The notes under the pieces were generated by a model. That model had not been told where the DNA came from. It did not search any database and was given only the letters and a program-made list of their open reading frames with translations. A stretch of DNA of 45,274 bases. Origin: a virus. A program made the translations under genes and the position numbers. The DNA lies in the IMG/VR virus record IMGVR_UViG_3300046499_000150, positions 1-45,274 of that record; one strand, written 5' to 3'. The first letter of the stretch is position 1. Each line of letters begins with the position of its first letter. This document shows, in pieces, positions 43,015-45,274 of this stretch.

Positions 43015-45274
43015 ATGGCTTACGACGAGAACGGCGACTGGATCGATGAAGAAGAAATCCCTGTCGAAGATGAGGAACTCCCTCCTCAAGATAAGCGCAA
43101 ACTCGAACTGCTAAAGCTCCAGGCCGAACCCGCTCCGCAGCTTCTCCAGGCATACGCTCAAGAACCCTTGCCCCCTGGGACAAGGGTTTCTCCTAACCTT
43201 GTCGAGAAGGTTAAAAAGCTCGAAGGTTACACTCCAACTACCGAATGGGATGTTAAACAACACTCCGTTGGGTACGGTACACGCGCTCAATCCCCTAACG
43301 AAGTTATCTCCGAACCCGAGGCACAAAAGCGTCTACAGTCTGAACTCGATCACGCGGCGTCAATCGTTGATCGAGTAAACCCCAGCCTTCCTGCTGGCGC
43401 TCGTGACGCAATGATATCCCTCACCTACAACACGGGTGGGAAATGGATCAATGACAACCTAGGCGATGCCGTCCGTGCGGGTGACACAAACGCGATCAAA
43501 GAGATATTAGTTCAGTACAACAAGGCCGGTGGACAGTATGTCCAAGGACTGCAAAATCGACGCAATGCAGAGGTTCGTTGGATTGATCAACTACAAAGCA
43601 CGGCTAACCAACTTAACAATGCTAGAGGTGCGAACGAAGTCCGTAATCAGGCTGATCTATATGCGTACCTATCCAAGGACAAGGACGCATCCCACATCGA
43701 AGGAATGACCCCAGCATTACACAATCGACTGGCGGCGTTAATCGCCGCTGCCCCTCCAGAGATCAGAAGTAAAATCACCATTAACTCAGGATACAGATCA
43801 CCCGAACGGCAAGCCGAACTATTCAAGGCCGCTGTAGCAAAGTACGGCTCGCCGGAGGCGGCTCGTCACAACGTTGCTCCTCCAGGCAGGAGCCAACATG
43901 GTTTTGGCAACGCTACTGATCTCGGCTTTGGTAACGACCAAGTGCGTAAATGGGTCCATGCCAACGCTGGGACATACGGGCTAAGGTTTCCATTAGGACA
44001 CGAACCTTGGCATATCGAAGTGAGCGAAGCCCGTGGTGGGAACGCTCCCACCGGCGGTGGTACTATACCGATGAATCTCGAAGGTGGTAACGCTGCTATT
44101 CCATCTGGTGTGTCACACACAGAAGGATTTCCTGCTGATGAGCCCCCGCCCACAGAGGGCGAACAGGCAGTTGTAAATGCTACAAACCCCACATTATTCT
44201 CTACGATGCAAACCCACCAGTATATGAACCAACCCCAGTCACCGGAGTTGACACCGTTACCCGTGGTAACACCACCGCCCTCCACCGAGCCCGAGCCTAC
44301 CTTCATGGAGAAGCTTGGTAATATGGCACAATGGCTGTCGCCCATGCGTGACGAAACTGGACGCACGTCGCCTTTGGGTCAAGTCGTAGAAGCCATAGAC
44401 CGTAACATCAAAGAATTCGGCCAGGGTGGGGCCTCGGGCGTACAAGATCTCCCCGCCCAAATGATAGGAGGTCCAGCCGCTTCTATCACAGCCGGTGTAG
44501 GTGCGCTTACTGGTTCTGACGAACTCAGCAGACAAGCTCTCCAGGGAGCTGCTGATTTGGAACAAGGAACACGCGACGCCCAGATACGTATGGGTATGAA
44601 CCCAGATGCATTAACTCCAGCACAACAATTTGGTTATCAAGTAGGATCAAACCTTGGACTGGGTGCGGCCAAAACCTTAGTCAACACGGGGTTGGGATAC
44701 GTCGCCTCAAAGGTAATCGGTCCCAGTGCCGACTACATGGCAAAGAACTATCCTATTCCTAACATAAATCCAATCAACGTAGCCAACGCTGCTGATCCAT
44801 CTGATGCCGTGTTTGGCAAGCAACCGCTTGTCGTTATGACTCCTGCTGGCCCACAAGCCATGAATGCTGCCGATGCACAGCAGCTCGCTTGGGGCGGAGT
44901 GCTAATGCTTGGCTTTGGTTCTTCTATTCCTTTAGCAGCCAAGACAGTCCGTATGGTTCGATCAGCAAAGCCATTCGGTCTATCCGACGTGTTTGATCCT
45001 CGCCGACCTGTATCTGGCGCTACTGGCACTGAAGCGGCAAGCATTCCCATCGACAGGCTTAAGATGGGCTCACTCGATATTTGGAAGGGAGCAATGGATG
45101 CTGTCGAACGACAAGCCAAATACGATAAGGGAGTGCAAGTCGGAATTGATCCTTTAGCCGCAAACGCAGTGCTTCAACACTTACGTGTCCAAACCAATTC
45201 AGGGGCACAAGCACTAATAGGCTCTGCCCTTAAGAACGGCGAAATGAATGCTACACCAGACCTCCAGTTTAAGG
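43015..45274 (+). CDS. Giant internal virion protein with lysozyme (GH24-like) and D,D-peptidase (M15) domains, N-terminal part
   Basis: Starts MAYDENGDWIDEEEIPVEDE (ATG at 43015, GGAG upstream after repeat 42981-42995). It is open to the window end and continues at base 1 to 3267, 1,799 residues in all. Residues 60-190 resemble T4-type lysozyme: E70 and D79 have the nine-residue spacing of the T4 catalytic pair, and SVGYGT (84-89) stands where T4 has TIGIGH, with Ser for Thr. Residues 225-340 match the VanY/M15 peptidase: SGYRSPERQAELF, S293-x-H295 and D302 (SQHGFGNATDL), and E330-P-W-H333, so the zinc ligands H295, D302 and H333 are present. Then follow linkers, helices and a hydrophobic stretch (WGGVLMLGFGSSIPLAA). 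Likely a wall-opening protein ejected at entry. A repeat copy is in frame at 44107-44121. Confidence 0.9.
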   Translation, partial: MAYDENGDWIDEEEIPVEDEELPPQDKRKLELLKLQAEPAPQLLQAYAQEPLPPGTRVSPNLVEKVKKLEGYTPTTEWDVKQHSVGYGTRAQSPNEVISEPEAQKRLQSELDHAASIVDRVNPSLPAGARDAMISLTYNTGGKWINDNLGDAVRAGDTNAIKEILVQYNKAGGQYVQGLQNRRNAEVRWIDQLQSTANQLNNARGANEVRNQADLYAYLSKDKDASHIEGMTPALHNRLAALIAAAPPEIRSKITINSGYRSPERQAELFKAAVAKYGSPEAARHNVAPPGRSQHGFGNATDLGFGNDQVRKWVHANAGTYGLRFPLGHEPWHIEVSEARGGNAPTGGGTIPMNLEGGNAAIPSGVSHTEGFPADEPPPTEGEQAVVNATNPTLFSTMQTHQYMNQPQSPELTPLPVVTPPPSTEPEPTFMEKLGNMAQWLSPMRDETGRTSPLGQVVEAIDRNIKEFGQGGASGVQDLPAQMIGGPAASITAGVGALTGSDELSRQALQGAADLEQGTRDAQIRMGMNPDALTPAQQFGYQVGSNLGLGAAKTLVNTGLGYVASKVIGPSADYMAKNYPIPNINPINVANAADPSDAVFGKQPLVVMTPAGPQAMNAADAQQLAWGGVLMLGFGSSIPLAAKTVRMVRSAKPFGLSDVFDPRRPVSGATGTEAASIPIDRLKMGSLDIWKGAMDAVERQAKYDKGVQVGIDPLAANAVLQHLRVQTNSGAQALIGSALKNGEMNATPDLQFK
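45148..45274. repeat. 127-bp end repeat marking circular closure (right copy)
   Basis: Identical to bases 1-127. Removing one copy gives a 45,147-bp circle with the giant gene intact. Confidence 0.93.

Follow-up and report, generated by a model that had tools for sequence, protein, structure and literature searches.

The virus genome analysed here encodes a giant protein of 1,799 residues in which a predicted GH24 muramidase is followed by a predicted VanY/M15 zinc peptidase, both lying at the N-terminus ahead of a large conserved body. We consider that this giant probably serves an uncultured P22/Mx8-like podovirus as its large DNA-ejection (internal virion) protein, and that its two enzymes probably took the place of a transglycosylase-like domain. 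From the position of its gene and the architecture of its orthologues, we infer that the protein is carried in the virion and ejected.

The window, i.e., the whole stretch of 45,274 nucleotides, corresponds to positions 1 to 45,274 of IMG/VR record IMGVR_UViG_3300046499_000150, from an uncultured virus. Its ends share exactly 127 identical bases (1-127 = 45148-45274), a strandless exact repeat that represents the overlap of a closed circular contig; removal of one copy leaves a closed circle of 45,147 bp. The N-terminal part of the giant (residues 1-753) is encoded by an open reading frame at 43015..45273 on the plus strand that exits the right end, and the same frame resumes in the 127-bp overlap at 1..3267, also on the plus strand (residues 712-1799 and the stop codon). 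Joined across the circle junction, the gene is one open frame of 1,799 codons, as the sequence-only reading had described it. An open run of this length has a chance probability of ~4e-27 at the stop-trinucleotide frequency of the window. An assembly artefact giving rise to a false fusion was ruled out, and the junction is taken as real, because the orthologues L038 and L180 are uninterrupted and similar over the matching region; L038 is 51% identical to the C-terminal part. Over 1,382 codons aligned with L038, differences number 480, 397 and 886 at the first, second and third codon positions, respectively, and this third-position excess is the pattern of a constrained protein-coding gene.

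The GH24 (Phage_lysozyme) domain spans residues 64-190 (43204..43584, plus strand) according to its HMM boundaries. Profile PF00959 was matched at residues 67-186 (Pfam, E=1.2e-17), covering the full profile (1-125) with 64.9 bits against a curated cut-off of 22.3. The catalytic positions are occupied by E70, D79 and S84, the first two being residues named in the earlier claim of a lysozyme-like domain. Position 70 is a glutamate in 51 of 52 GH24 relatives and position 79 an aspartate in 47 of them. The third position had been presented as a deviation, with Ser instead of Thr; this view did not hold, since S occurs in 26 and T in 23 of the same 52 relatives (N in 2), and Ser84 is ordinary for this subfamily. 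The spacing between D and S is one residue less than in T4 lysozyme. In the structural model this part adopts a lysozyme fold with pLDDT mostly >90, and it aligns with the Acinetobacter prophage muramidase 6et6 over 139 residues (Z 18.9, rmsd 1.9). Taken together, Pfam match, catalytic residues and predicted fold identify residues ~64-190 as a GH24 muramidase, the only Phage_lysozyme match in the whole genome. Two weak Pfam matches below cut-off, Amidohydro_3 on the GH24 region and 2OG-Fe_Oxy_2, were discarded.

The M15/VanY domain follows at residues 222-340 (43678..44034, plus strand), with a VanY match (PF02557) at residues 231-334 (Pfam, E=9.6e-12; 45.3 bits against a curated cut-off of 25). 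Its site comprises S293, H295, D302, E330, W332 and H333 in the motif SxHxxGxAxD ... ExWH, in which H295, D302 and H333 would be the zinc ligands and E330 the catalytic residue. Across 111 M15 relatives, S293, H295, A300 and D302 do not vary, and E330 and H333 are unchanged in all relatives reaching the site (109-111 of 111). The site is therefore as complete as it had appeared on first inspection. This part of the model aligns with VanXYg (4f78; Z 12.4, rmsd 2.4, 118 aligned residues) and with LdcB (4ox3; Z 12.5, rmsd 3.9, 133 aligned residues). Profile match, invariant residues and modelled fold thus identify residues ~222-340 as a VanY/M15 zinc peptidase preceded by the GH24 domain. Structure prediction of residues 55-340 had been suggested as a check on both folds. 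The AlphaFold model, generated for residues 45-350 from an alignment of the window with viral-contig relatives, returned the lysozyme and M15 folds as two confident globular parts (mean pLDDT 88.8). The two are connected by a predicted long helical linker (residues 177-216; 43543..43662, plus strand), of low confidence at ~202-208. With two different wall-cutting domains predicted on one protein, the giant would rank among the lysins with two catalytic domains.

The search of IMG/VR yielded three orthologues of the body: L031, which is partial, L038 (IMGVR_UViG_3300043473_000022; giant of 1,790 aa) and L180 (IMGVR_UViG_3300045120_000082). A T3SSipB match on L031 was below cut-off and was ignored. 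L038 and L180 share with the window the same leader and body as well as conserved upstream genes. The acidic leader (residues 1-50; 43015..43164, plus strand) is 44% and 48% identical to those of L038 and L180, respectively, leader identity ranging from 43 to 48% over the three pairs. The body, of which the first part (residues 349-753) lies at 44059..45273 on the plus strand, comprises ~1,450 residues and is 53.8% identical between window and L038, 39.4% between window and L180, and 43.0% between L038 and L180. The giant aligns with that of L038 at residues 1-76 and 349-1796, leaving the gap between them unaligned. This segment (~residues 51-348; 43165..44058, plus strand), flanked by a leader and a body on which the orthologues do align, is where they differ from the window, having one transglycosylase-like domain instead of GH24 and M15. 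Their segments share 44% identity and bear no relation to that of the window; the segment of L038 matches transglycosylase phrog_4067 (E=8e-6), while that of L180 matches an SLT profile HMM built from gp16-type proteins (E=3.5e-9). Neither giant, L038 or L180, contains a GH24 or M15 match.

These alignments show that a predicted enzymatic segment of ~300 residues has been exchanged as a block between orthologues. Judging from the three sequences, GH24 and M15 probably replaced, as a block, an ancestral transglycosylase-like domain on the branch leading to this virus. Replacement on the window's branch is the simplest scenario because the body of L038 is nearer to that of the window, yet its segment is shared with L180.

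The body itself is devoid of recognisable domains. Pfam and PHROG searches with residues 712-1799 gave no match, nor did an HMM search of the body against solved structures (PDB), and the AlphaFold model of residues 712-1799, based on the three orthologues, reached a pLDDT of 32. Hydropathy reveals only two weak hydrophobic segments in the giant and none in L038; consequently, membrane insertion is unsupported by hydropathy. Profile-profile comparison from residue 346 onwards revealed no match to the bodies of gp16-family, Vibrio ejection, PBC5 or polyvalent (L066, L137) proteins. These results bear on the idea that the giant is a polyvalent or DarB-like injected protein, whose body would carry host-takeover or anti-defence functions and whose wall enzymes would serve for entry only. 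Giants with the same N-terminal domains do belong to that class, namely gp22 of PBC5 (Hydrolase_2, M15 and InPase, DarB-like), L066 and L137, and phage polyvalent proteins are known to include lysozyme, PF07486 and DD-peptidase domains (Iyer et al. 2017, PMC5512222). However, the lack of a profile match to the bodies of PBC5, L066 and L137 speaks against it, as does the fact that no effector-type Pfam or PHROG domain was found in the body. The two wall enzymes are the only domains recognised in the whole giant. We regard the polyvalent explanation as unlikely.

The gene setting points to a structural role. Genes for the terminase large subunit, the portal, a 390-aa protein in scaffold position and the major capsid protein were assigned with PHROGs at 21693..28117 (plus strand), and the relatives of the capsid protein, Mx8, Mx9 and BUCT555, are broadly P22/Mx8-like podoviruses (PMC10386132, PMC10281127, PMC8228603). 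The giant is encoded by the final gene of the late plus-strand block, after the terminase, portal, capsid and tail genes, and faces a convergent DNA polymerase gene, an arrangement also seen in L031 and L038. This position, last in the late block and next to the convergent polymerase, is where an internal virion (ejection) protein is expected, and BUCT555 encodes a transglycosylase-domain protein in the corresponding region. Based on gene order and capsid relatives, the virus is a P22/Mx8-like podovirus in which the giant's gene closes the block of structural genes. Immediately upstream, at 36830..42977 (plus strand), genes for proteins of 162, 304, 327, 530, 497 and 178 aa encode candidate partner virion or ejection proteins; L038 encodes counterparts of five of these six in unchanged order, the match of the 530-aa protein being limited to its N-terminus.

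The same setting weighs on the proposal that the giant is a tape-measure protein or a tail-tip lysin of a long-tailed phage. Among the matches listed, the nearest M15 relatives are often found in tape-measure proteins (phrog_16823; RcZahn), but the capsid relatives are podoviruses, no tube or sheath genes were recognised among the late proteins screened and the PHROG search gave no tape-measure match for the body. Moreover, the wall enzymes are N-terminal, occupying the slot of the gp16-like transglycosylase domain in the relatives, which leaves this proposal highly improbable. Least probable of all is that the giant acts, additionally or principally, in lysis when infection ends. This was considered because no separate lysozyme or endolysin was recognised among the ~40 ORFs screened; against it stand a size (1,799 residues, including the large conserved body) far from that of an endolysin, the structural position of the orthologues and many small unannotated ORFs that could hide an unrecognised endolysin.

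Several other features of this genome deserve mention. The L038 match of the 530-aa protein (39335-40927) extends over its first 100 residues only, another sign of block exchange in the region. The 162-aa protein (36830-37318), inside the late block, is an acetyltransferase (PHROG 1249), and a GNAT acetyltransferase occupies a comparable place in BUCT555 and ppBjS10J-1. At ~residues 400-470 of the 497-aa protein (40946-42439), STLMQAGVNIDGKEYNIPTVYDGR...FPSYNTPEEAEARY resembles by eye the stretch YSTEISTTWQLPDGKWVNVPSLWMGK...FPRFDSEQEAVAAA that follows M15 in PBC5 gp22, a likeness that could possibly reflect a shared domain of ejected proteins. The 951-aa tail fibre (32975-35830) contains collagen-like repeats, and its C-terminus matches the chaperone-like Peptidase_S74 with a score below cut-off. 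Between the leftward early and rightward late blocks, ~1.75 kb (17919-19675) contains short ORFs only, none of at least 80 aa on either strand, with no Rfam match and no tRNA; this is possibly an origin or promoter region, or a set of small genes.

According to the ejection-protein reading that we favour, the giant would be carried inside the capsid and ejected into the periplasm upon infection. There the predicted targets of the GH24 and M15 domains are, respectively, the MurNAc-GlcNAc glycan backbone and the stem peptide or a cross-link, and both cuts together would open a hole in the wall. By analogy with T7 gp16, the body may then help to form a DNA conduit across the periplasm and the inner membrane.

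To evaluate how rare this domain pair is, every ORF of ~155 related loci was profiled for GH24, M15, SLT and Hydrolase_2. Among these loci, GH24 and M15 occurred on one frame in the window only. This rarity is an estimate because the sample is incomplete, the M15 scan comprising 80 of 199 confirmed loci. A search of 385 bacterial genomes from the class to which an uncultured Rhizobiales bacterium (MAG) belongs detected no frame with GH24 and M15; the giant's body was not found in the same 385 genomes either, in a search without a positive control that shows little. Among the matches listed from 50,697 phage records, none covered over 21% of the N-terminal 753 residues in a single stretch. Other combinations of a glycan cutter with M15 did occur. 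SLT precedes M15 in L008 and L115, and M15 precedes SLT in L107 and L132; L008, L107 and L132 encode true T7-gp16-family proteins (PHROG 342, E 7e-126 to 4e-174). Since M15 and SLT occur in either order, gp16-family proteins may have gained a second enzyme repeatedly, before as well as after the transglycosylase. Hydrolase_2 is followed by M15 in PBC5 gp22, L019, L157 and L158. The sequence-only reading had called a lysozyme and peptidase pair on such a giant unusual. That assessment stands for GH24 with M15, seen only here, but not for the broader pairing, which recurs as SLT with M15 in L008, L107 and L132 and as Hydrolase_2 with M15 in PBC5 gp22. By domain content, GH24 with M15 joins known domains in a new way on an ejection-type giant, in a landscape where giants with a glycan cutter and M15 already exist. 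The gp16-family frames with both M15 and SLT lie at 5758-10194 in L107, 5683-10206 in L132 and 7206-11741 in L008. The survey also recovered polyvalent-type proteins with one N-terminal wall enzyme each, namely a giant frame with GH24 and HATPase (L066, 5899-12364) and another with M15 and ddrB-ParB (L137, 5950-12346).

On giants, M15 is found repeatedly together with a glycan cutter, in several cases in Rhizobiales phages or prophages. It is conceivable, at odds a little short of even, that one podovirus lineage swapped the single transglycosylase-like domain of its large ejection protein for a cassette of muramidase and stem-peptide peptidase, a combination of GH24 and M15 so far unreported. 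The number and kind of bonds cut at entry would then seem to be adjusted to the wall of the host, with block exchange leaving the ejection machinery intact. The window, L038 and L180 represent a natural swap experiment, in which the same body carries one enzyme or two. Such a set makes it possible to ask whether a second bond-cutting activity aids entry through more cross-linked walls.

Among known systems, T7 gp16 offers the closest analogy. Its N-terminus contains a lytic domain, and lytic domains are exchanged among ejection proteins (PMC8954989). The giant displays the same layout, an N-terminal wall-cutting domain followed by a large body, within a virion gene block. The likeness to T7-type ejection proteins drawn initially is not matched by detectable homology: neither PHROG and Pfam searches nor profile-profile comparison linked the body to gp16, and the giant is consequently not filed as a member of the gp16 family. 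That it works like gp16 is the best analogy we can offer. The proteins of L008 (IMGVR_UViG_2606217776_000005), L107 and L132 resemble the giant in bearing a glycan cutter and M15 at the N-terminus of a large body, but they have an SLT fold instead of GH24 and a PHROG 342 body without detectable kinship to that of the giant. The internal virion protein of Rhizobium phage RHph_I20 (Autographiviridae) has an N-terminal M15 domain, ~55% identical in the matched part, though without a glycan cutter and on a PHROG 342 body. Sinorhizobium phage PBC5 gp22, L019, L157 and L158, of 2,197 to ~5,000 aa, also start with a glycan cutter followed by M15, but Hydrolase_2 (PF07486) replaces GH24, and the PBC5 body is DarB-like with InPase. 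A lysozyme domain on an internal or ejection protein is found in SP6 gp36 and phiKMV gp36 (PMC5380687), and in the ejection proteins of Vibrio phage D530 and Shewanella phage phiY2; unlike the giant, these proteins carry a single enzyme and no M15. Finally, SP-beta CwlP, which combines a lysozyme with an endopeptidase (PMC5380687), HydH5, phi11 gp49 and phiMR11 gp61 are virion-associated proteins that share with the giant two different wall-cutting domains, whereas they belong to the tail or baseplate of phages infecting Gram-positive hosts and have other domain combinations. In a 2017 review, virion lysins with two different lytic domains number only five, each listed for a phage of a Gram-positive host (PMC5380687), and another review describes virion endopeptidases as almost exclusive to such phages (PMC6116005).
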